Shown in pieces: positions 15,432 through 54,872 of a stretch of 64,000 bases of DNA (its first letter is position 1; each line of letters opens with the position of its first letter). Source of the stretch: Hysterium pulicare CBS 123377 (Eukaryota > Ascomycota > Dothideomycetes > Hysteriales > Hysteriaceae); the NCBI GenBank assembly GCA_000467715.1, contig AJFK01000067.1, forward strand, positions 1 to 64,000. The letters are read 5' to 3'. The translations under genes and the position numbers were made by a program. The notes beneath the pieces were generated by a model. That model saw only the letters and a program-made list of their open reading frames with translations. It was not told the DNA's origin and ran no database searches.

Positions 15432-18400
15432 TCACATGTCAATGGTCTCATTAAACCTCAGCACTCCATTTCCCTTCAGGAATCCGTCAACGCCACTCGG
15501 GACCTGATACGCTGTCGGATTGGCGACGTTGAAGGAGCCTTGTTGGGCCAGTGCGGAATCAGGGGCATCGGAAATGTCTGCGACAAGAACCAAACCGGCC
15601 GTCTTGACGGATTCGATCAAAGCGGGTGCGAGGTCCTGAGAAAGTGTTAGTTTCCGTAACGGGCAGGCAATTGAACGCAGAAGGAAATGTACCAATAATC
15701 TTGAGCTGCAAATTAATCCCATGAAGTTATTATCCCTTGCAATTTGTACCGCTTCTTTGACTGAAATCGTTGTACGGCCACTACTTTTGACCGTCTGTGG
15801 ATTGTTCGCGGATATCGAGGCATCCGCGCCGAGCTCGTTGCATAGAAGGACAGGGTCTAGAAATTTGTCGTTCGTTAGCTGACTATTCCTCCAATCACAT
15901 GTACAAGCACATGGTTACACAACAAAAAACAAGCAAGCGGTGTGGGGAGTTATAAAGACCCGCGTCAGCGCACAAGCTGAACTTACAATTCGGCTGCTTC
16001 CAGTTCAACGCAGTACAGATGTCTTGATTGAAGCTGCTGAACACCACGCTTCTCAAAAATCCGTCCTTATCCCCAATTCCTTGCTCCCTCAATACTCTAG
16101 CATGTTCGAAGACGATAGTTAATATCTTATCCGCGAAATCATTGATGTTAGGTGTCGAACCGAGTTTGAGGATTTCTTCTTCGTAGGTGTTAGGGTAGAG
16201 GACGTGGAGTTCTACATGGATGTGAGCAGGTAGGAGGGCAAGAGCATCACGGAGAGTCATGAATGATGTGGCAAGAGCTTGGTGTATGGTAGGAATATCA
16301 TCGGGAGATGCATTTTGCAATCGGGATAGTTGTTGGGCGGCGCTCGGGTTCTGGTTAGCGCCAATGCTAACGAATTGGGCGAATGTGAGGATATTGACCG
16401 GGACGTCGAGCCCTTGGTGATTTACTTTCCATCTCGGGTACAAAACCGGTACGCCATCGGCCGTCAATTGCACGAATAGACGAACGTATTCGCCTGAGAG
16501 ACTGGAACCGGTGATGAGGGCGGTTGGATGTGAGTCGAGCTGACTGGTAGCTTTCCAGTAGGTGGCAAAGTGAGTGATCTCTAAGGGAATTCCAATAAAG
16601 GGCTTCACTACTTGGAAATTGAAGCTTATGCGACCAATTGGTCGGAGCCGGGGGTCGAACAATTCCAGATGCCATTGACCGGAACTGTAAGCTGTGCCAG
16701 TAAAGACCTTTGACGAAGCAACGCTCCGTGCGATGACCTTAGAGCCAAAGGTTGGGTAGATGTCGAAGTCGATCGCAAACGTATCGAGATTCTCAATCTG
16801 GAAGGAAACGACTTTGAACTCATCCTGGATGGGTAGTAGAATGTTCCGAGGTATCAAATCCGACGCCTTCGAGGAGATGGTGAGCCGAGCTGCAGGATAT
16901 TTCTGGTCATCGTAGAACTGTATTGCATCGCTACCAGCGTTTTCAAAGCTGATGACGACGAAAGTCTTGGTGTCAAGGAAGTTGTGTCCATAACGCCTGA
17001 GGGGTATAATGGGTGGCGGTAAAATGAATTCTGGTATGCCTTCTCCTTCCCCCTCGATTTCCATAGGAGCAGGCATGGAGCTTGAAGGATCTTGACCAGC
17101 GACACTAAGTATCTGCGGTGATACTTGCTTTGGCGTTGCGAGGCCAACACCACGTCCGACCGATGCTAATAGTCCCATGCATTCAAGATGACCTTCCCAC
17201 GTAGCATAGTACATGGCGGAAAGTCCCTTCTCATCCAAGTCATCAACACTGACACCACATTGCAGTAGTGTTTGAAGGCACTCAACATGGCCCTCGCTTG
17301 CAGCGTGGAAAAGGGGTGTCCATTGATACAGCTTGTCTGGTTGATTGAGATCAGCTCCGTATTTTTGTAACAATAAAAGCATTTGTGGACTCTTGCCCGA
17401 CCGGGCGACTAGGTGCTGGGGGTACAATCCTTCAGCATCTGGTAAATTCTCGGCGTGGCCTTGAAGAAGAAGCTCTACGATCGGCATGGAGTCATGTTGA
17501 CAAGCAAGGTTCAGTGGTATATGTTCCGATGGTCCTAATCGCTTGATTTGGGCCCCTTTAGTTAGAAGGATTTGCACGCAGGCTAATTGCGAATGCACGA
17601 TAGCATGAATGAGTGGTGTGAAGCTGTCTTGGTCCCTGAAGTCGATGGTGTCTGGGGCAGTATTGATGAGTTCTTCGACTAATTCGACGCGCCCATGCAT
17701 GCAAGCATAGTGCAATGGGATTCGCCCATAGACATCGGTAGCGTGTACGTCCACCTCAGCAGCCAAGCCCATCCTAAGTACTGTCATCCGTCCACAGATT
17801 GCTGCTTTGTGGAGACAGTTCCGTTCATTGATTTCGTCTTCTTGACTGAGGTTGACCTGCCTAGTATCTAGCATGATTTGTAGTGCTTTCTCGGGTGCTT
17901 CGTCGAGTGTGCTCAAGAATGCTCTTGATATACGCTCCTGAGCATCGTTCAGTTGCGAAAGTCGTGATAAGCATTCTTCGATCTTTTCTGTGTTGGCGGT
18001 GTTGATTGCTTGTACGATTTGGTTATCTAATTCGATGTCGCCATCTAAGGATGGTTCCGGTGCTCTGTTTTCGTTTGTCGCAGGCGTATATTGCATCTTG
18101 TCCCCTTCTGCCCATCCTGAAAAGTCCAGTAGAGCTTGAGTCGCCTGGTCCGATAGGCTGCTGATCACGTCGCGGTTGAAGCAAGGTTGCACCTCAACCG
18201 CCCTCGACAAATATAGTTGTTTTTCTCGTGACTGGCGTGCAAGTCAGCCATGGCTGTAGTATCCGTCTAACCTGAGACCCGACCTTGGAGGTTTTATCCC
18301 ACTAATGAGACACGTCAGTAAGCTGAGAATAGTCGTATCTACAGAATAAACAGACCTTTTTCAAAATTTTAGAGAATGCGGTTGCGTTCACTTCGACGAA

Positions 18401-27337: not shown

Positions 27338-27892
27338 TCAATCCGCGTCCGTGTTTCCCAATGTTGCCTGAGGAATCAATCCGGCATGCTGAGTAGGGAT
27401 ACGAACAAGCGTCTGAGGGAGGGGTATTTCCGATTCGGGTTTCTTGCTTGCTTCGTCTTCCTCTCCTTCTTTGGGTTTGGGGAGTTTCGCTGCATTGAAG
27501 TCAGTCTGGGTGCATACAAGCAAAAGCCATGAGATCACGTACTTGACGCCATGTTAATAGCTCTGAGTACATTATGCCAATTCGACAAGACTGCCGCGAT
27601 TGCTAAAACCCGTTAATGTTAGCCCTGACCCTCTGAACGAATGCTTTCATTTCTGAGGTGGCCTACCTTCGGTACCGTCTGATAATGTACCCAACTTGTC
27701 TGCCAGCATCTGCATCTGATCGGCCAGTCCAGCGCTCAGTGCTTGTAGGTCTTTCAAGTTGGAAAGTTCTGCCTTTTTCTCATTGATGCGCGCGAGGAGA
27801 ACTGGGGATTGGCCGGTAGAAGATTGCACGCCGCCGAGGGAAGTAGACGGATTTCGAAGGTGGGAGGGAAGTGGGCGGCCGGAGTAGGACAT
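27338..27892 (-). CDS. DAD2: DASH/Dam1 complex subunit DAD2
   Basis: Three exons: 27892-27667, 27602-27543, 27489-27338; 145 residues. The core LARINEKKAELSNLKDLQAL is a heptad helix and is followed, across intron 1, by DGTE-AIAAVLSNWHNVLRAIN, the Dad2 signature. The C-terminus is a Lys/Glu/Pro-rich tail ending NTDAD. DASH rings couple fungal kinetochores to microtubule ends. The length is near that of other fungal Dad2 proteins. Intron phases are 1 and 1. The 5' region (27893-28106) separates it from the relics that open the accessory island. Confidence 0.92.
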
Positions 27893-28106
27893 TTTGATTG
27901 TAGCTATAATCGACAATTGCTTCTCCTGAGAACTTCGAATACTAGTATCTTTTGTGGCGAGTGTTCGTCTAAAAACATTCACTCAGCGCGGAACGCGACC
28001 CGCCGCCATTCACGTGTCGGCCTTACCGTCGTCGGCGAAAAGGTTGGCCGGCCCGGACAAAACCTTAAGGATTCTACCTACACCTAAATTTTATATATAG
28101 TAATTA

Positions 28107-28208
28107 TTAACTGTCTTCACAGGCACCCTTGAACGTCTCAATCATTTGCTTGTCCAGCTCTTCCATTTTCTTCCACTGCCCTCGATCCTTGTAGATCGAA
28201 GCTAGATT
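28107..28208 (-). pseudogene. Remnant of a TPR repeat from an NLR-like protein
   Basis: A 33-codon minus-strand frame reading NLASIYKDRGQWKKMEELD followed by KQMIETFKG and a stop. This is the kinesin-light-chain-like TPR unit that ends many fungal NB-ARC or NACHT proteins. Neither a full repeat array nor a nucleotide-binding domain is next to it, so it is a fragment of a lost gene. Confidence 0.6.
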
Positions 28209-28280
28209 GGCTACCTAGGTATTCGGGCCAGGCTAAGGGCGTCTCTCTTTCTCTGTTTCAATAATGTCAACCCGAGGGCA

Positions 28281-28890
28281 TTATTGTTGGTAAGTTGTGA
28301 TAGATGCTCTTGCTAAGATACCTTCGCACTGTGTCAAACAAGAATTTCTACTACATTGGTTTGACCGTAGGGCTGAGCAACGGAGAGTGGGATGTGCCGT
28401 CCTCGTTGGTATAATGCTGTCAGGCACCATGGTCCAGGAGCAATTGTAACACTTCAGAATAGCCATATGCTTCGATCCAAAAAGTGGTGTGCGTCTAGCG
28501 AGGCTTCGTACATGGATTTTATCAGCGTCGGTTGCCAAAAATAACGTCGACAACTTCTTCATGCCCAGAAGTCGCTACCCACCACAAGTGGTTTACTCCA
28601 TTGATATTTCGATTATCTGGGAGATGCCGTCTTTACCAGCCGGTGAAGAGTTTTGGAATCTCCAATTTGGACGGCATTGCAGATTCGTGCGACGTTGAGC
28701 CATTTCTCCTTTTCGCCAGCCCGCTTATCGAGGAGACCAAGGACCTCTTCTTGACCATTACTGGCAGCTGTTTCAATTGCTCCATCGATAACTTTGATGC
28801 AGGTAGTTTGATGAAGAAGTTTAGTCATCTCCTTGCCACTACCCTCATTCCCAGCGGCTGTCTTGACCATCTCTTCTGTGATCTTGACCT
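28281..28890 (-). pseudogene. Decayed ankyrin-type repeat gene, NLR-associated
   Basis: On the minus strand, pieces in different frames still resemble each other's family: KITEEMVKTAAGNEGSGKEM (the ITEEVVKAAAGN-type repeat found in long fungal NACHT-ankyrin proteins), NGQEEVLGLLDKRAGEKEK, NHLWWVATSGHEEVVDVIF and YGYSEVLQLLLDHGA (ankyrin helices). The frame changes several times and contains stops, and no start or continuous exon set can be drawn, so I call it a broken host gene. With the TPR piece just downstream it may be one relic. Confidence 0.6.
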
Positions 28891-29087
28891 ACTCGCTGCG
28901 TCTGCGAGGCCCGGCGTTTTAAAAGGCGCAGGCTTAGATGGCAAAGGCTTGATGAAGATGCATAGCATTTTACACGAGATAGACTTCATCTGATATTGCA
29001 TAGCAAGGTGTTTTGAGTCAGAAATCCCATGCAATTGTATATTGAATACAATGTTTATTTACCTCTCATGCGAATTCCACGATATGG

Positions 29088-31336
29088 CTATAAAGAAGCT
29101 GACAATTTGAATAGGCCCTCAAGGATCGTGTGTCGGAAGTCTGTCAGCAACTGCGCTGGATTGTGATCTAAAGTTGAAGGCGCGAGGGACCCAGACAGAC
29201 AGCTAAAAACAATGTCGGAATATTTTCTCCCAGTGTAGTGAGGTAGATAAGTCTTCGCTGCCGTCATAAGATGCTTTCGAATTTGCCACTCATCGTTGAC
29301 CTCTGCAAACCCTTGTTTTGCAGGATCGAACGCGCTTGCTATTTTCCAACACCCAAGCTCTAGAAATATGACACCTAACGAATATATATCATGGATGCTG
29401 TTGAAGGTTTCTTGAGGAGCAGCCCATCTCTGAGGATGAGTATACAGGAACCTTGGCGCCCGGTATTCTTTGGTATGCTCCGAACTAGCTGCTTGTGGCC
29501 TTGCGAGATCGAAGCCGAACAGATAAGGTTGGGAGAGCTTCAGTCCCCTCCCGGAGTTGTCTGTGGCTTCTGAATCAGGAAAGAAAAGTATGTTTGTGCT
29601 GCAGAGACTCTTGTGTACCCATCCTACAGCGTGTAAGTTGGATATTCCACGAGCGAGCGAGTACGCAATTTTCATTCGCGAACTCAACGGCATCATCGGT
29701 ACCTTCTCGTAGAGATCCTTAAGCGTTCTGTGTACTGGTGCTTCAAGCGCTCTTATGGGTAGTCGAAATACAAGACCGAAATAACTGTTCATTGGCTCAT
29801 CGATATAGCCCTCATATTCCGCGATCGGTAGACTGGAGCTCGTTGTTTCTCTAAGCAATCGGTCCAGCCGCTTCACATTGCGGGCCACCTTCTCTCGGGG
29901 AAGCTGAGCGCTGTAATTTCTTCTTTCGATAAGGACGTAGGCTGTCTCTAGCTTTCCGTACGTGTGCATTGCGCCCGAGTGTATTTGAGAGAACTCAACG
30001 CGCTCGACTCTACTGTGTGGAAGGGGTTTTATCGATGCTAAGCCGGCGTCATCATCGAGCGTTAATGCCAGCAGTCGCATTCGTGCTGCATCTGCCAATC
30101 CTAGGGCTCGTGCTGGAGCACTCAAACTGAGGTCGTGCAAGCTGTGTTCGGAGTAGAAATGTGGGTCGAGCAAAAGGTTGGTTTCCAAGGATTGATAGAC
30201 TGCATCGTTCCAATTCTGCAGTTCTTGCAGGATTGAGCGAACCAAAAGAGTCTTGTCATGATTGCCAGGCTGATCGATTCGTTGGGCTGTGGTTTGTAAG
30301 GTAATGTCCTCGGGCATGTCACGACCCTTGAGCTCATGCAGAATCCGCTTTTGCAGGTCTGGAATTTGGGTCTGTTGTAAGAATGCTTGTATTGTTTCGA
30401 CTCTTGCGAAGACGTTGTCGACAGTGAGACTCTCAACACCTTTTGGTAGATACGTCCTCATCCAGCGGTTCAGTCGCTTCAAAACAACATCATCCACTTT
30501 TCGAGACATTGATATGGTCAAAGTCAGTATCGTCAACGGTGTCGGTCTTTCGCGAATGCTATCTCCAATCGAGTTTTCCAGGACTGGCCGTAACTCGATA
30601 CTCTCTTCTCCTTTCCACAGCGTTCTAAGAGGGGTAGCGGCGAGCGGCGACTCGAGCTTCAAAAGCTTTTCATAGAGTTCCGATATCTTGACAACTCCTC
30701 CAACCCGCAACATGGAATCCATGATGTTGATCAATGCGCTTGTGAATGAAAGCGGTCCAGCCTGAGGAGTAGACTCTCGAATTCCACATGCGGCGAGTAG
30801 TTCAAATGTACGCGAGTCTCGATCTCGAACTGCTTGGAATGCGTAGCAGCAGTCAAGGATCATGAGAACGTCGCCGTCCCAGGCTCCAAGAGATGGCTGA
30901 ATGTCGTACCATTTGAGCTCGGGGCTGTCCATCTTGGACGTTCTACTGACACATCAGTTCAAGTATCATGATGAGTCTGCTATTCTTACGCTGTCCATAG
31001 CGACCTTTTCTCATCTCCACCTCGGTCACCATGTCCAGAATAATATAACATGAATAAGCAGTCCTTCGCTACATCTTGATATGTGCTGTAGACATTGTTC
31101 AAGGTTTGCTGCATATTGATCTGTGAATGCTTCGAAGGTATTCGATAAGCGTCGACAGTAGCACCGATGCCTTCCAATGTACCCCGGAGTCGGTTGACTT
31201 CAGCGTCAATGCCATGATCATCTTTCTCTTCCCAAGTGATAAGCAGTGCGTAGATGGCGTTATAGCCCACCTTGTTTCGTTTGATCACGTCACTGACAGA
31301 GTTATTCAATGCTTCCAAGATTTGTTCCTCTTCCAT
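29088..31336 (-). CDS. Caspase-like domain fused to a pseudokinase; candidate cell-death protein
   Basis: Two exons, 31336-30990 and 30942-29088 (intron donor GTAAGA, acceptor GTAG); 733 residues. The N-terminal 150 residues are a C14-type caspase/metacaspase fold: a strand with NAIYALLITWEEKD, then FMLYYSGHGD with the catalytic His at 102, and VLMILDCCYAF with the catalytic Cys at 148. The intron falls between these two motifs. A helical linker (about 250-330) follows. The C-terminal 280 residues are kinase-like but inactive: WVHKSLCSTNILFF replaces the HRD loop (about 559) and LFGFDLARP replaces DFG (about 592), while KEYRAPRFLY and DIYSLGVIFLELGCW are retained. Such pseudokinases occur beside HeLo/HET-S-type domains in fungal immunity-like proteins. 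Divergent from the 91-residue gene with 247 bases between starts. The fusion order is the unusual part. Confidence 0.82.
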
Positions 31337-31583
31337 ATTAAGCGCAACCCGGAGTAAGGGCCGAAAGCGATGGGTTTACACAGAATCGTAGAGCTGAGCC
31401 AGAAAAAAGCCTCGCTGCTTACGATTCGGCTTGGAGACGAGGCTCTGCACCAGGGACCAATAGAACTGCTACACGAATATGAGGAAATGCCGCGTTCAGC
31501 CTCGTTCAGCCTGGTCTCAAATGACTGCCATGTCAGCCTCGTTGCCCTAGATCCTCTGAAGAACCCACGATAGTTGTTCAATC
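31337..31583. promoter_or_regulatory. Compact divergent promoter of the caspase-pseudokinase and 91-residue genes
   Basis: Only 247 bases lie between the two start codons, so both genes must be driven from the same short region. No specific motif stood out. Confidence 0.5.
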
Positions 31584-31963
31584 ATGTCCGAGAGCAAAGA
31601 CAAAGTGGGTACTCAAGGCTTGAACTATATACATTAACTCACCGGTTCCGAAGCGCGATCCCGTCAACATTTCGAAGGACGAATGGAAGGCGCATGCGAC
31701 ACACGAAGGCTCTGATACCGACGTAAGTAACACACGGAGAGGCAATAGACATTACAATAACTAACTGATATATATAGTACGTTTCCGTGTCATACTTTCA
31801 AAAGGGCGAGAAAGTATGGTACAAACCCAGTACTGAGCGGGGAATGTATGGCCCTTACACAGTTGTGGAGCACTCGGGAGACGAAACCTATACGATCAAG
31901 AAGGACAGTGATGGCGTAGAACATCCTTCACCGGTCCACAAAGATGAGCTTGATCGAGTGTAA
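31584..31963 (+). CDS. Unrecognised 91-residue protein, possible SH3/chromo-like barrel
   Basis: Three exons: 31584-31604, 31654-31722, 31778-31963; 91 residues. Start MSESKDK, then RDPVNISKDEWKAHATHEG, then a strand-rich C-terminal half: VSYFQKGEKVWYKPST, GPYTVVEHSGDETYTIKKD, and a final HKDELDRV. The spacing of aromatic and Gly residues in that half resembles a small SH3-like or chromo-like beta barrel. I know no named family for it. The first intron (49 bases, GTGGGT...AAG) is the least certain; the second has GTAAGT. Its position, back to back with the caspase-pseudokinase gene, suggests a shared role. Confidence 0.6.
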
Positions 31964-32272
31964 GAGATGAGTAGGGCTACGGGTGAGGCTGAATGCTGCA
32001 GACGCACACAGCGGTCTAACATTGACCGGACTAATTAAGAAACCTAAGATGAGAATGTACTCGAGTTCTGCATCATCGCTTTCTGCCCACTTGCTTCTTT
32101 TGTGCTTCTGTTCAGCCTCTCGCTAAACACGCACTCCAGCTCCTTCAGCAAACTACCCAAGCTACCTAGGTATATTCTCCAAGCTCTCTAACCAATCGCC
32201 GCCATAGTGAATAGAGCGACAGCCCTCTTATGCATGTACACACAAGATTTAGGACGAATTGACGTTAGGCTA
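31964..32272. other. Intergenic
   Basis: About 300 bases between the 91-residue gene and the DUF6594 gene, same strand. No coding signal; presumably terminator and promoter. Confidence 0.6.
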
Positions 32273-33363
32273 ATGAATAGTGCGTCGAAAAGACTAGAGA
32301 TTACCAAATATGAACTAATTTGAACAGTCGAAAATTATCCTCGTGGATACCCCCGACTTGCAGCCTTTCAAAGTAGTGATGATGATTTCATCATCTTTCG
32401 CCGATTTGCTACTGCGCACACAAGATGCTTGCTTCTTGCTCAGGACGAGATCTCATCACTTGAAGAGCAGCTTCAGCGCCTCGATAGTGCTGAGCGTACA
32501 CAATTGTATCTTAGTTCTAGAAAATATGACGGAAACTCTGAACGACAAACTGTGCTGAAAGAACTTCGGATGAAATTGAGAGAATATGGTCAGTGTATCC
32601 CTCAACACAATAGCGACAACAGTAGCTGACGATGAGGAAACAAGACAAGGATTTAATTCGATACCTACAGTTGTGCTCAGCCGGAAGACCAAGACACGCA
32701 AATCTTGACAGCCTCAAGAGATGGATGAAAGCTGTTAAACCACTCATCAAGGAGGAGACACGTTTTCTCGATAAGCCAGACGATTTTGTAACAATCCACA
32801 GAGATGTGGAAGAGGGAGCACTGGAGCTGATGGTTGAGAAACTTGCCCGGAAGTCAAAGATAGGCGATATGGTACTTCTGATCTATGCTTGTTTTTGAAC
32901 GGTGCTAATCACTGCGTAGGTATTAAGGTCGGAGGTAAAAGCGCTCTGCTTATCTGAGTGATCCCATATGAGGCTGACGATTGGAAGACTGAACGTCAGA
33001 AATCTACGGATCTACATCTTCACTTCTACTCTGCAAGTCGGAAGGGCATACTAGTTCGCCTGCTTCTGACGAGCCTCGCTTCTTTCCTCTTGCTCGTGCC
33101 CACGATCCTTCTATATGAACTGTCGAATCTGCGAGCACGTCTCATTGTGATCGCAATATTCATAGCATTGTTTGCCAGTGCCGTCGCTTTTTTGACGAGG
33201 GCAAGACGGCATGAGATATTCGCTTCGACTGCAGCGTAAGTCTGCAATAGTCTCCGTGAATCTTCCGACTGACCTGACGATTCCTTAAACAAGATACACG
33301 GCGGTCATGGTGGTTTTTGTTTCCAACATTCAACCAATCGTTTCCGGGAATGTATCTTCATGA
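32273..33363 (+). CDS. DUF6594 transmembrane protein
   Basis: Five exons proposed: 32273-32279, 32328-32588, 32645-32871, 32973-33235, 33294-33363; 275 residues. Exon 1 is 7 bases (ATG AAT A) and joins to give MNIENYPRGYPRLAAFQSS, the family's start. A charged helical region follows (DEISSLEEQLQRLD and so on to about 165). Two hydrophobic helices lie near 195-225 (LLLTSLASFLLLVPTILLY and VIAIFIALFASAVAF), then RARRHEIFASTAAY, a typical DUF6594 ending, and a last helix TAVMVVFVSNI. The fourth junction is uncertain: either one intron 32872-32972 as given, or two shorter ones with a 15-base exon at about 32920-32934; both keep phase. Many DUF6594 proteins occur in expanded accessory sets of filamentous fungi; function unknown. 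The stop overlaps the convergent gene. Confidence 0.75.
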
Positions 33364-36300
33364 GTTCCAAAGTTACCTCCATCTTGTTGACCCTCAGCAT
33401 CGGGCATATTCGGTCGCCACCTTACGCCCCACCATTTCACTCGATCGGATGTAGTGTTCAAACTCTTATCAGGGAGATACCAATCCCCAATATCATCGGA
33501 TGGCCTCCATTGACTCGCTCCTGGCTTCCTCAGAGCAAGCTTGACTTCTTCGTCAGGGACAGCCGACCGCGGAGGAAAAAGGCCGATAGTGTGCTGTAGA
33601 TATTCCGAAACCGAATCCATGGACTTTCGGTATTCCAGAAGAGCTCGCTCGCCTTGCTGTGTTATTAACCACGGTGGAAAGTCCTTGCAGAGCTGCACCA
33701 AACCAAGTGGGCAGATATCTTTATCTCGAACATTCAATGGTTTTGCGTGTAGATCGACTATTAGCCGTCCAATATTCTTGAGATTCGCCCATATAATGGC
33801 TTCGTGCAGTGCCGTTAGTCCTCGCCTGTCATAAATATCGACTACAGGTTTGACCAGATCCGCGAACTCCTCACATATCATCTTCAGTGTTGTCTCTGAT
33901 TCGTAGACTGGGTTCGCATCAGAAACGATGCCGTGAAGGAGGGTGTACGGCCCATCACTGCCCGGGCTCACCACTTTTGCGCCATGAGACAATAGATACC
34001 TCAACGCTTTCCTTTTGCAGCAGAAGGCCGCAGTCGCAGCAGGTGTACCATCGAGATCCAAATTGATATCGCCTCCTTTGGCAAGCAACAACTCAATCAT
34101 ATCGACATGATCATATTCTGCAGCTTTGTGTATGAGGCCAATATCATCTATGGCTGCTTTCGCGGAGTTTCCGAGACAGTCTAGAATCACTCTTGCTGCA
34201 CCCACTGTCCCATTTTCTGCGCAAATCGCTAGAGCGTCAATACAACCATTATAAAACTCTTTCTGTTCCATATAGCTTGAGCAGTAATTAAGAATGATAG
34301 CCATCTCTTCTCCATTGACAGTGTCATGTTGAAAAGATATCGCTGCAAATCTAAGCGTCTGCTCCGAGACTGAAGGTTGGAAGTGCAGGAAATGTCGCAA
34401 AACGGAGGCATGGCACGAGGTTTGAGAAATAAGATTCGCAACAGCAGCGGCTTCAAGACTAGGAGTCACGAGCCCTGACTCCGGCTCTAGCAATAATCGC
34501 ATGGTCTCTTGAGCCATTTCATCTACGTTTCTGCCGTGGTACAGCCAAAGTCTAAATGGATCCAATGTGTCACCTACGTGGTTGATAGCAGCTGTTTCTT
34601 GATCTTCATGATCCAGATGAGCACCATGCGATTGAAGAAGCCGAATCATTTCTGGCATTAGGAAGGCGCTTGCGACGTCAATGGCATATGGCGGATAATT
34701 CAAGCAATCTGGTGGCATGTGCGACATCTTGTTGAGGTCAACTCTAAGGTCGATCAGAGCTTGTACAGCAGGGACGTTTCGCGCCATTATCGCCCAATGG
34801 AGAGGAGAGCCGCTGAAGACGAGATTCAGGTCACGGAGGAATCTCACTGCGACCATGTCGTGGAAAGGTGTCAAAGATCCTAGTGCACTAGCAACCTTTG
34901 GGATCTCAGAATCTTCGAACATAAAAAGCCAGTGTAGTGGCGAGAGGCCATCGGCGGTGTTGGTGCGTGCTAGGTCAGGATGAAAATTGAGTAGAGTCTG
35001 CACAAGCTTAAGTGATCCGCTTTCGCATGCGACGTGAAGCAGCGTTTCGTCGTCGACAGTGACTGTAGAGCCATCAACCCCTCTTTGTAATAGCTCTTCA
35101 ACTAGTTCCGGATCGATTCTCGCAAGATGATGTAGAACAGGCTGGCGTCTGAACTTCCCATCTACCTCTGATTCAATCTCCAAATGATGAAACTGACCGA
35201 TGTCAATGACGCTCAAGAGCCTTTCGGCAGTGAGTTCCGTGATAGTGACATGGTCATGAAGAAATATACTTGACACTGATTGTCTGAGCCAGTAGGTATG
35301 GGCTGAACGAATCTGATGCGCGGCCTTACTTTCTGATCGCATTGACGATACGACTCCTGAGAGTGAGAGAAAGGGATGGTCAATCAGGGTCGCCATATCT
35401 AGTGGCTCTTTGCCTAGAATGCCGTTCTCTAAAAATGCTTTGCAATAGAACATTGCTGGTTGGTGACCAAGTCTCGCAGCTTCGACGAGGTATTGCAAAC
35501 TCTTCTCATCGTCCTGTAAGATACCAAACCCTAAAGCATGGAAGGCTGCTAAGTTGAATGCATCTAATGCTCGGATGTCTTCTTGACTCGACTTCGAGCT
35601 GTCTCTAAGCGCGCCTGTTAATTCTGTGCGGACTTCGCTGGGAATTGGAGCCGCGGAAATCTGCGAACATGAGTTCAGCCAGGCAAGTCCAGGAAATCGC
35701 TGAATGGGCTTTATACTTACATCGAAAATAGAATAGCTGGATCTTTTCAAGGGTATAGCAATGACAGGCTCGTAGCTGTTTCCCTCTTGATTAAATATAT
35801 TCTGTACCCATCGGAAATCAAGGGTTACTGCATTGACTCACTCGTCTTCGGGATCCATGACCTGGCGAATGTCTCGTATAGAAGAACGTGACTCAGGGTG
35901 TCGCTGTAAGGCTAGTTTCAGGACTTCAAGAAAGGGCTTCGCTATCGCTTCCGGCAAATCTAAGCCTTCGATCCAATGGACACCATATTTCAGGAGTTCC
36001 TCGTCAGTCGCGTCCAGATTAGATAAGAATGTTAGGGCCTTGCTCACGTCTTGAGTATCTATGCCTATAGAATCAGCTGTGTAGAACCTGCGACCATCGT
36101 GTGCAGTCTCCCATGCAGCTATTCCGTAAGAGTACACATCGGCCATCTCAAAGCCATAGTGAGGTTGTAATGCTCTTTTGGAACACAGATTACGTAGTTC
36201 CGGGGGGTTAAGGACACGGGTTCCGTGATATGTGTCAGCTCCTAAGGTCTCTGCGAGGCAGAAGCCAAAATCGGCATACTTAGGAACGAACCCGTGTGGA

Positions 36301-36974
36301 CTTTTCGAGAAGACGAGTATGTTTTCGAGTTTAATGTCACCATGAATGATGCCGCAGGCGTGAAGTAGCTCCAGTCCAGAAGCTAACTGGACTAACGTGA
36401 GCTCTTTTTGCGACCATGACAATGTATTTTCCTGCAAAAATGCATCCAGGCTACCAAGGTCGGCGAGTTCAAGCACAAGGAATGGTAGTGGGCCTTCGTC
36501 CCAACCGTAGCCGACAAGTTCGACGATGTTTCCGTGGTGAAGGGTGTTGAGGTGACACAAGACCTGGACTTCCAAGAGAACATCATCCAGCCGTTTCCTC
36601 GCTGATCCGTCATACGAAAGTTGCACACTTCCATTGCCACCTCGGCGTATGTGCTTTACAGCCACCAGCTTCCGTCCCTTAGCTTCTCGTCGTTCCACTT
36701 CGAATGTTGCGCCTTGGCCTAAATGTGAACCAAAAGAGGGCCAAAGTCGATCATTGATAGATAGATCCGCTAGTCGGGAGCAAGCCAGTGTAATGACGAG
36801 ATCCTGAAGTGTCGATGACAAGGAAAGGCTCTTGGTGTTGTGGGGCACTCGGCTGAACAGCTGCCCTCCCGAGAGCTCCAGTTGCGATCCATACCGCGAT
36901 ACAAGTCGAAGAGGCTTCAAAGGGAGATCTGAAACCGCATTTCCAGAGAGATAGAATTCGTCTGATGGATCCAT
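33330..36974 (-). CDS. Ser/Thr kinase-ankyrin repeat fusion protein
   Basis: Three exons: 36974-35842, 35775-35721, 35660-33330; 1172 residues. Residues 80-375 are a protein kinase: GQGATFEV (86-93), Lys107 in VAVKHI, Glu135 in the C-helix, HGDIKLENIL (HGD in place of HRD) at 211-220, DFG at 235-237 and GTRVLNPPEL near the activation-segment end, so it should be active. A frame-based reading would stop at 35838, but the splice GACGA-GTGAGT to AACAG-C gives PED-DYEPVIAIPLKRSSYSIFD and leads into the repeat part. From about 420: a Sel1-like helical stretch (AFHALGFGILQDDEKSLQYL), then ankyrin units such as TLLHVACESGSLKLVQTLL and GLTALHEAIIWANLKNI. Intron 2 (60 bases) is in frame and could be retained. 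The stop codon lies inside the last exon of the DUF6594 gene. Confidence 0.8.
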
Positions 36975-37516: not shown

Positions 37517-39922
37517 ATGGACATTCTTCCTGACGACGAAATAGTGAAACGTAGGTTTTTGAGGCAAAACCGAGATCTTGCAAAGTAAGACACCTCATCC
37601 GTGAACTATATAATGATGTTTGTTGCTGATGGATTCGATGCAGGACAAACTCGACGCAATCAATCCGCATCCGTAACCTCGAAGCCGAAGGATCCCGTCT
37701 CCTCGCCGAAAATCTCTCTCTACGTGAACAAGTCATACAGCTGCAAAATGCTCTCGAAAATCAATCCAACCGTCCTTCGCTGGAGAACATTGATGCAGTC
37801 AAAGATCGCTTAGAAGCCAAGATACAAGAGCTGGGAAGTTTAGTGGCAGAGCTTGGGCAAATACAACGACCGACTGCAGAATCGAGGTGCAAGAGTCAGA
37901 CGGCAGCAACCAAACGGAGTCCAGATGAAAGAAATTGGAGGAATGGAATTGGATTTGGTGAGGCGGAGGACTCAAGGTTGCCTACGATTGCGGAGGGCAA
38001 ATATTACCCTAGGAAGACTATGAAGTATGTAACACGGGCATATAGTTACACTGTGGAGAAGCTAATAGGATATAGTGCGGATGAGCTTGGCGAGATTCTG
38101 GAAGATCCAGATAGTCAATCACCGGACCTAGGCCCGCCACCTGTTGCTCGATTCCAAAACGAAGATCCCATTCAGTTTGATGCTGGACCACCTCCAGCCG
38201 ACGAAGTCGCAGAGGAGGAGGTACGGGATCCGGATCCAGCCCTCAATATTGAGACCCGAAGGAAACGAAGGGATAGCCATGCCAAAATCAGCATCCGACG
38301 CGTAGCCGTATTCCAGTCGCCTCCTGAAAATCCTGAAGATGGTGCTACCACATTAAATAAGTCTGTAAAGGCTGGCGCGAAACGGAAAGTGAGTGTGATG
38401 GAAGACGAGGAAAAGGCGGGCACGAGAGGCGAGCCACAAACAGATGGCTTTAGATTCAGTCGTAGGGCGGCTTCAACTGTTTCTGATAATGGCACCATCG
38501 AAGGGATTCATGATGATCGTCAGAAACGTGTACCTGAGCGACCAATTTTGGGCAACAGTAGGTTTATTTTCATCAGTTTGAAGAAAACAATGCTGATACT
38601 GTGCAGAACCCGTAAACACCGACCCCATAATGTCACCTAAGAAACAGAAGGCCTCCGCGCCCGAGAAGGCCGATGCTCAGAAGCCTACTAAGCCAAGAGC
38701 ACACCGTGGCCGATTTGCTGATTTCCAACGTACAACTGAGCCTATCGAAGTCCGGCCCGCCCTTATTGAAACCGCAGAAATTCCACTCGATCTACCTCCG
38801 AAGACTCCCGCAGTTGACGATATATTCTCCCCACCATCCACTGAACCCTCGACGCAGCGCCCAGAATCCAAGGACACGCCTCCGCCCACCGACCTTAATC
38901 TCTCCAACTCATCATCGGAACAACCAGGAGCCGGAGGCCGCGCCGCTCGTCGCGCGCGTGCTCCAGTCAACTACGCTGAACCAAATCTTATCAGCAAGAT
39001 GCGCAGACCTACGAAAGAGCTGGTTGATGCGGTCGTGCCTTCTACTCAGCAGCGGCAATCTTCGAGCGTTAATCCAGACGAGGCATCGGCGCCAGCCACC
39101 ATTGAGAAGTCTCAGATGCGAACAGTGGTGATTAAGCGCGAGCGTGACGAGGGGGGAGACTCCGCTTGGAAGAACATTCCATCAGTACCTGGACCTGAAC
39201 CGCAGGATGAAGTTGGAGAAAGGGATAGTCCGTTGAGTAAGAAGACGGGTCGACAGAACCAGAGCTCAAGCCAGGAACGAGGAATCGATCCTGCTCCAGC
39301 GTCCGGCCCTCCATCTATGACCCTGAACTCCTCTGCTGCTTCAAATGCCATCTCTGCTCTAATATCTGGATCCGCCAACTCCAGAAGGAAGGCGATCTCC
39401 AAGGACTCATCAACATCAAAACCAGAGTCCGCACCTGCGCAAGTCAAAGGTAAACCTGACCCCAAGGAGAAAGCAGATACAAAAGACAAACCAGAAGCTC
39501 AGCCCCAATCAAAACCCAGATCTTCCGACAACCTCGCCATCTTCGACTTCACAGACTCCTCGCCCACAGATGCCAATCCTACGTCTATAGCCCGTCCTCG
39601 AATCGATCTAGCAAAACAAGCCAGAACAGCACGTAGGCATTCTTCTATATCTTCTTCTGCGGGTGCAAGTGCGGCTGTCAACAAATCGCTGCCGTCTGTA
39701 AGCTCGCGACAGAATCCTGGAGGCGTGAGAAGTGCTAGTGCGAGTAACTTATCCTCTGCACCAAAGAGCGGAGACGAGGCGAAAGCGAGAGGCAGTAAGG
39801 ATGTCAAACGGTCTGCCACCTCAACAACGCATCTAGGCAGTGGAAGCGAAGATGGCGCTGGAGCGACAGGGAGTCTTAGGGGTGAGAGAGCGGCTAGTAG
39901 ACGACGGAGTATGATGTTGTGA
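37517..39922 (+). CDS. SGO1: Shugoshin, centromeric cohesion protector
   Basis: Four exons: 37517-37584, 37644-38024, 38076-38557, 38607-39922; 748 residues. The N-terminal coiled coil crosses intron 1: FLRQNRDLAK then TNSTQSIRIRNLEAEGSRLL and ENLSLREQVIQLQ, the PP2A-B' and dimer region of shugoshin. The conserved C-terminal motif RRARAPVNYAEPNL with KMRRPTKEL lies at about 425-447; it binds phosphorylated histone H2A at centromeres. Intron 2 (51 bases, in frame) was recognised because its removal gives RKTMN-ADELGEILEDPD, the usual acidic patch before SPDLGPPPVARF. The rest is Ser/Pro/Lys-rich and disordered. It is divergent from the kinase-ankyrin gene (542 bases between starts), so the accessory island ends here. 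Confidence 0.93.
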
Positions 39923-53615: not shown

Positions 53616-54872
53616 GGTTATCATTTCATATTATTAGGATGCATATGATTTTGTAGCGTGTTCGGAGTTCAGGAGGTTCAGCCGGACTACGTTTTGGAGT
53701 TAGAAGAATTGGGATTTTGAAACATGTCTTAAGACACAAATTTTTATGGATACCAAGTAGCCAGCAGGGAATGGAATAAAAGGCATCACGATTGGATTGC
53801 CAGGAATCTTGATATGTGAACCAATCGTAATATCTTGGATATTATATACAATATCTCTTCGTTCATCAGATACCGTCGTATACAAAATTGTGACAGCAGC
53901 GGCCGTAGCCTCAGTGCTTGACTCTATTTGTTTTGTCATCACCTGAACGTAAGAGAAATTGAATCTGGCTTGTTCGACCAAGCAAAGGCATGCTCGTGAA
54001 AAGCATCCAGCAGACCCTTGAAGAAAAATCTTTGGAGTTCCTCGCATCAAGAATAAGCCCCATCGAGTTACCCCTCCAACAAATCCAATTCCAAAAGGAT
54101 CGAACTTGAGAAAGGGCAATCGCATAACTATCCATCTCGACGAAAATACCCTCATGCTCGTCCTCCCGAGAGGACCAATGCCGCTGCACCCAGACACCTC
54201 CTCCACTCCCAGAGCAAAGAACCGCCGTTCATCTCGTTCAAGGAAAAGCGGACTCATATCTTCGTCCAGATGCCAGACCCATCGCAAGAGACGTTGATCC
54301 TAGTCCGAGAGAGAGTACAAACGGTGTGCAGAGTGAGGTCAATGGGAAGTAGACGAGAGAGGCCGCGTTGCTTCTATGGCGGCGCGTTGGCGCGATGTGC
54401 CTGCAAAAGCCGGTTGTCCGGGGACTTTCTCCCAAAGCATTGTGTGAGTGAGGTGCTCAGATCCGAAGATCGTGAGTCTCTGTGTGTGAGCTTTGAATGC
54501 GATTCTTTGAGCGAGGAACTGGAGGAAAGAAGAGTTCGGAGTCGGAGAAGATTTGATTTTGCGAGGGCAGCTGGAAGATTGTTGGTCCGAGCCGGGGCGA
54601 AGCGCTAGGCAGAGGCTGGGTCGGGCCAGGCGGAAGCGTGAAGGCTGCCTCAAGGATGCCGTAGATGCCTTGGTGACTTCGCGAGCTGTGGTTGTTCTTT
54701 ATTCACGCGCGCCAGAGCTTTAAACGTCGCCCGTCCTTTTGTTCCACCACCACTACAAACCCTTTTGTTCTGCCGTTTGTCTTCCTCTTCTATTAAACGC
54801 CAGTTCCAGCTCCCCTCAGATCTTTCGAGCTACCAGAGCTATCACGTTAAAAGGCTTCGATCAATTCGCACC
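53616..54872. other. Intergenic between RAD52 and RAE1
   Basis: 1.25 kb. A 195-codon minus-strand frame (54287-53700) and 112-codon plus-strand frames overlap one another here; none shows a domain, and I could not build splice-consistent exons. The last 150 bases are the RAE1 5' region. Confidence 0.5.

Follow-up and report, generated by a model that had tools for sequence, protein, structure and literature searches.

A caspase-pseudokinase gene between DAD2 and SGO1 of Hysterium pulicare, a candidate death-type protease switch, and its neighbours

The window analysed here is a 64-kb stretch of contig AJFK01000067.1 of Hysterium pulicare CBS 123377; the island studied within it spans positions 28107-36974. 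Between DAD2 and SGO1, both of them chromosome-segregation genes, lie about 9 kb with four genes that are intact and a fifth, a repeat gene, that is broken. The two flanks had been taken for core genes in an earlier, sequence-only reading of this DNA, and this is borne out by profile matches: the domain part of DAD2 (27647..27892, minus strand) matches DASH_Dad2 in Pfam (E 1.6e-11), and the N- and C-terminal domains of the shugoshin SGO1 (37630..39922, plus strand) match Shugoshin_N (E 7.4e-10) and Shugoshin_C (E 9.6e-10). The gene models were built by hand from stop-to-stop frames, are predictions from sequence alone, and were compared with Pfam, NCBIfam, PADLOC and PDB sequences. Ten introns of 44-66 nt are placed across the predicted models, all of them starting with GT and ending with AG.

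The intact genes are closely packed. A gene for a caspase-pseudokinase protein and a gene for a 91-residue protein are divergent, and the 247 nt between their starts (31337..31583, according to the gene models) may contain a promoter shared by the two. The start of the DUF6594 gene lies 309 nt beyond the end of the 91-residue gene, and its coding end overlaps that of a kinase-ankyrin gene, tail to tail, by 34 nt (33330-33363).

The broken repeat gene, at 28113..28888 on the minus strand, is spread over three frames, with stops between. A DUF7104 piece at 28814-28888 was recognised above the cut-off (E 1.8e-9, frames with X at stops); searches with whole frames added weak ankyrin-like pieces at 28423-28783 (Ank_2, E 0.029) and a weak TPR-like piece at 28113-28214 (TPR_7, E 0.034), both below cut-off. 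Each of the three models is matched in a different minus-strand frame; at E 0.1, the plus strand and the reversed sequence were without a match in all three frames of each. When the six open pieces were searched singly, two of them matched (DUF7104, E 2.1e-8; TPR_7, E 0.0011), and the remaining four, including the ankyrin-like ones, did not. Judged by DUF7104, the predicted dead gene is real; its ankyrin and TPR parts are weak. The earlier description of this region as decayed NLR-type repeats holds for the decayed repeats, not for the label: since neither a NACHT nor an NB-ARC domain was found at E 0.1 in the six frames of 28060-29087, the dead gene is not called an NLR. Decay by repeat-induced point mutation was considered and rejected, the composite index being -0.75, a value reached or exceeded by 80% of 1704 windows of the same length. 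Literature searches returned nothing on DUF7104, and nothing on NLRs in Leotiomycetes.

The caspase-pseudokinase gene (29088..31336, minus strand) is composed of two exons, 30990-31336 and 29088-30945, separated by a single 44-nt intron, and encodes 734 aa. Both domains assigned to it from the sequence score above the Pfam cut-offs, and both assignments could be refined, the first to an EACC1-like caspase and the second to an MLKL-like pseudokinase. The caspase domain covers approximately residues 39-210, with His102 and Cys149; Peptidase_C14 matches the first exon with E 3.1e-7 and the whole protein with E 2.0e-6. Among NCBIfam models, the EACC1-associated caspase (NF047832) aligns residues 47-210 with positions 26-204 of its 211 (E 5.6e-10), nearly the full profile length, although its score of 39.1 bits is far under the curated cut-off of 140. 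No S8 or CHAT match was found for this gene in Pfam, its protease part being C14, and a sequence search of PDB with nothing but the caspase part retrieved no caspase.

In order to compare the catalytic residues, fungal residues 1-245 were aligned with ten bacterial caspase domains, taken from 10 of 33 plasmid records. The bacterial domains are 17-27% identical to the fungal row, and H102, C148 and C149 are identical in all 11 rows. The second cysteine, Cys149, is presumably the nucleophile, by analogy with metacaspases. The region between the caspase and the pseudokinase is without a family match.

The pseudokinase covers approximately residues 440-734, and Pkinase matches this C-terminal part with E 6.9e-8. 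At E 0.05 or better, 19 distinct PDB sequences were retrieved, the top three being MLKL chains (E 3.1e-6 to 5.1e-4), followed by LIMK2, eIF2alpha kinase entries and KSR, among others. The MLKL match spans 131 residues of the C-lobe only, the beta-3 Lys region lying outside the alignment. Within it, HRD is replaced by HKS, with Ser in place of the catalytic Asp, and the place of DFG is taken by GFD, where MLKL has GFE; on these two replacements the C-terminal domain is classified as a pseudokinase. 'MLKL-like' may mean just a degenerate kinase of the broad group of LIMK2, eIF2alpha kinase and KSR. A single-sequence model of the domain reached a pLDDT of 39.3, too poor for a structure search. 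Established for this gene are its layout, the joining of the two domains, the conservation of His and Cys, and the absence of the catalytic Asp and of DFG from the kinase part. A live gene is suggested by its uninterrupted frames, its plausible introns and a codon use that is nothing out of the ordinary.

Divergent from it lies the 91-residue gene (31584..31963, plus strand), whose three exons, 31584-31604, 31654-31722 and 31778-31963, encode exactly the 91 aa expected. Its sole family match, below cut-off, is Integrase_p58_C, a retroelement integrase C-terminal domain (E 0.0049). In a single-sequence model, the last 61 residues form four strands plus one short helix (pLDDT 73.8); Foldseek returned 312 matches for it at E 10, none of them at E 0.001. 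Tudor, SH3, integrase-C and myosin identities were discarded for this fold, all the structure matches being weak. The segment 31584-32272, corresponding to the gene and the gap that follows, has a RIP-like index of 0.15, reached by 0.1% of 1712 windows of the same length, the segment having been chosen post hoc.

The DUF6594 gene (PF20237; 32273..33363, plus strand) has six exons and encodes 275 aa. Once spliced, the model is matched by the profile from end to end (208.2 bits versus a cut-off of 30, E 2.3e-61). A predicted exon of 15 nt (32920-32934) is required for both frame and profile fit. The membrane location proposed for the product agrees with a hydropathy scan, by which three membrane helices are predicted at residues 195-213, 222-240 and 247-265. 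Comparison with PDB by sequence gave nothing meaningful (best E 1.8), and the term DUF6594 was found in no paper by literature search.

The last intact gene, at 33330..36974 on the minus strand, has three exons and encodes a kinase-(Sel1-like)-ankyrin protein of 1172 aa. The kinase and ankyrin parts already read from the sequence are confirmed by Pkinase (E 4.4e-26) and Ank_2 (E 1.1e-24); the Sel1 match is below cut-off. Among solved structures, the best match of the kinase is LRRK2 (PDB, E 2.3e-13), in whose alignment both aspartates are kept, as HGD at 211 and DFG at 235; Lys107, in VAVK, was read directly, outside the alignment. On these motifs, the kinase is probably active. Several matches below cut-off were set aside: those of both kinase domains to the defence-system profiles MAD6, MkoA and PD-T4-6 and to NCBIfam kinase models as generic kinase similarity, and those of the ankyrin part to the profiles PDC-M72A and Ankyrin of the same kind as generic ankyrin similarity.

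The composition of the island is much like that of the rest of the window in GC3, codon number and GC, and hardly points to a foreign origin. GC3 ranges from 0.442 to 0.565 in the four island genes; 11 long coding stretches elsewhere in the window span 0.460-0.607, with three of the four island genes inside this range and DUF6594 just under it. In effective codon number, three island genes fall within the spread of the other stretches (52.2-60.9), the 92-codon gene of the 91-residue protein (71.9) being too short to judge; two models in the codon-use set were extended by one codon beyond the stop. In 2-kb windows, GC is 0.46-0.49 between 28 and 37 kb, versus 0.46-0.52 across the window.

Other genes of the window are mostly of conserved kinds, and include CRM1, a serine carboxypeptidase, a MYG1-type gene, RAD52, a WD40 protein, ICE2, YAE1, an RRM protein and a polysaccharide deacetylase. 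An ankyrin-GDE1-C2-GDPD protein is encoded at 15895-18243 on the minus strand, and resembles the PHO81 type. An RNase MRP RNA gene was located at 54040-54517, minus strand, by a match to the full Rfam model RF00030 (105.3 bits), and no tRNA genes were reported in the window. At a Pfam threshold of 0.001, one of ten stretches in one set and five of ten in another were without a match.

Relatives were searched for in collections of bacteria, archaea, viruses and plasmids. Pattern scans found none for DUF6594 in viral contigs and none for the caspase-pseudokinase in genome contigs. A Streptomyces caspase used as query also found no relatives in genome contigs, yet 33 plasmid records hold its relatives; such scans thus detect no more than close relatives, and little can be read from their negative results. 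With the fungal caspase as query, two plasmid matches were obtained, with E 3 and E 9, and the profile score of the latter (184.8 bits versus the cut-off of 140) identifies it as a true EACC1-type caspase. This Streptomyces plasmid gene (L001:3935-7021) encodes the caspase followed by a TPR region, in which HaaT and AfsR models were matched below their cut-offs, and a hypothetical gene lies beside it. That adjacent gene has no match in NCBIfam, and the same is true of the 91-residue and DUF6594 proteins of the island.

The reading we prefer, to which a probability of about 0.5 is assigned, is that the caspase-pseudokinase protein is a single death-type protease switch, encoded among neighbours that merely reside in the same interval. 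A role of the cell-death type is reasonable for this protein. The pseudokinase would bind a partner or a nucleotide, or become phosphorylated, and thereby change shape; the caspase, supposed to be proteolytically active, would then process itself or a substrate, and this processing would lead to cell death or to a stress response. The DUF6594, 91-residue, kinase-ankyrin and dead repeat genes are most simply seen as sharing a gap in which accessory genes are tolerated; their accessory status we infer from what is generally known of their families. If the neighbours are merely co-resident, only one gene of the island is of interest, and the rest is a gap like any other between core genes. If the protein is such a switch, a single fungal polypeptide joins two domain types of separate animal death pathways, a fungal caspase is tied to a bacterial conflict system, and DUF6594 gains a testable candidate function.

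A rather less probable view is that unrelated genes have gathered in a permissive gap, that none has a death role, and that the caspase protein is a regulatory protease of an ordinary kind. The mixture of families and strands, the turnover evident from the dead gene and a composition much like that of the rest of the window are all consistent with it. A caspase bearing its catalytic dyad and fused to an MLKL-like pseudokinase is, however, hard to read as housekeeping.

A single module made up of all four intact genes is unlikely. The immunity-like or self/non-self locus proposed in the earlier reading would be a module of this sort, and no NLR sensor was identified for it. In the module, the kinase-ankyrin protein would be the sensor and would phosphorylate the pseudokinase that is joined to the caspase, in the way that RIPK3 acts on MLKL; DUF6594, cleaved or released by the caspase, would break a membrane; and the 91-residue protein, encoded head-to-head with the caspase, would be an adaptor or an inhibitor. 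The tight packing (247 nt, 309 nt and the 34-nt overlap), a predicted active kinase beside a pseudokinase, and a protease close to a protein for which three membrane helices are predicted would fit such a module, and two reviews offer a precedent for clusters (PMC12881547, PMC10197012). Against it, gene orientation is mixed and no interaction domain common to the genes appears among their family matches. Accessory families often occupy the same gap, and those found here are widespread enough in filamentous fungi for them to be neighbours, in all likelihood, by chance. A stronger form of the same idea is quite improbable: that apoptotic and necroptotic logics are merged in a death module, in which an active ankyrin-sensor kinase would act on an MLKL-like pseudokinase carrying an EACC1-type caspase, and cleavage would free a membrane-breaking DUF6594. 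DUF6594 would then be a new executioner family.

That the dead repeat gene is a lost sensor partner, or a lost C-terminal repeat region, of the caspase-pseudokinase gene is a long shot, compatible with the other readings: it lies on the same strand with the caspase gene directly upstream, beginning 200 nt past the caspase stop, and its repeat kinds serve as sensors in fungal NLR-like proteins according to PMC12881547, but it is split over three frames, with weak ankyrin and TPR matches, mixed repeat kinds and no nucleotide-binding domain.

The candidate switch and its surroundings can be set against four known systems. The dead gene resembles fungal NLRs in repeats of NLR-associated kinds, weak as the ankyrin and TPR matches are, and differs from them in that no nucleotide-binding domain was found in the six frames of 28060-29087.

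Fungal gasdermin-protease clusters, as described in PMC12881547 and PMC10197012, are similar in having a protease fused to a kinase-like domain, and a compact group that includes a membrane protein. The island differs in its C14 caspase, without an S8 or CHAT match, in a DUF6594 protein with three membrane segments, and in that no gasdermin is recognised. In the gene models of the island, Pfam recognised neither a gasdermin nor a HeLo or HET domain; within 10 kb, the absence of gasdermin refers to Pfam matches of these models, with frames partly scanned and a family whose fungal members Pfam may miss.

With MLKL, the fungal pseudokinase shares the loss of the catalytic Asp and of DFG at corresponding places, and MLKL chains are its top three PDB matches. 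The fungal domain is fused to a caspase, not to a four-helix killer domain: the N-terminus is the caspase, and no HeLo match was found there in Pfam at E 1. None of the papers examined describes a fungal protein in which a caspase is joined to an MLKL-like pseudokinase, which is weak evidence of absence.

PMC7159879 describes EACC1-type bacterial caspases as components of a two-gene system with a membrane protein, with up to 50 alternative C-terminal domains and effector deployment by autoproteolysis suggested by its authors; in the related vWA ternary systems, the catalytic residues are disrupted in most kinase domains. In EACC2 systems, according to PMC8195603, the variable domain behind the caspase can be a kinase of the S/T/Y type. 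The fungal gene differs from EACC1 in its score below the curated cut-off, in its intron, and in that no EACC1 protein is recognised, NCBIfam being likewise silent on the gene beside a true bacterial caspase; DUF6594 has three predicted helices instead of one, and is not adjacent to the caspase gene on the same strand. Like the EACC1 system, the island has a membrane-protein gene, DUF6594, nearby, and like the bacterial caspase component, the fungal protein has an N-terminal caspase, with aligned His and Cys, and a different domain behind it.
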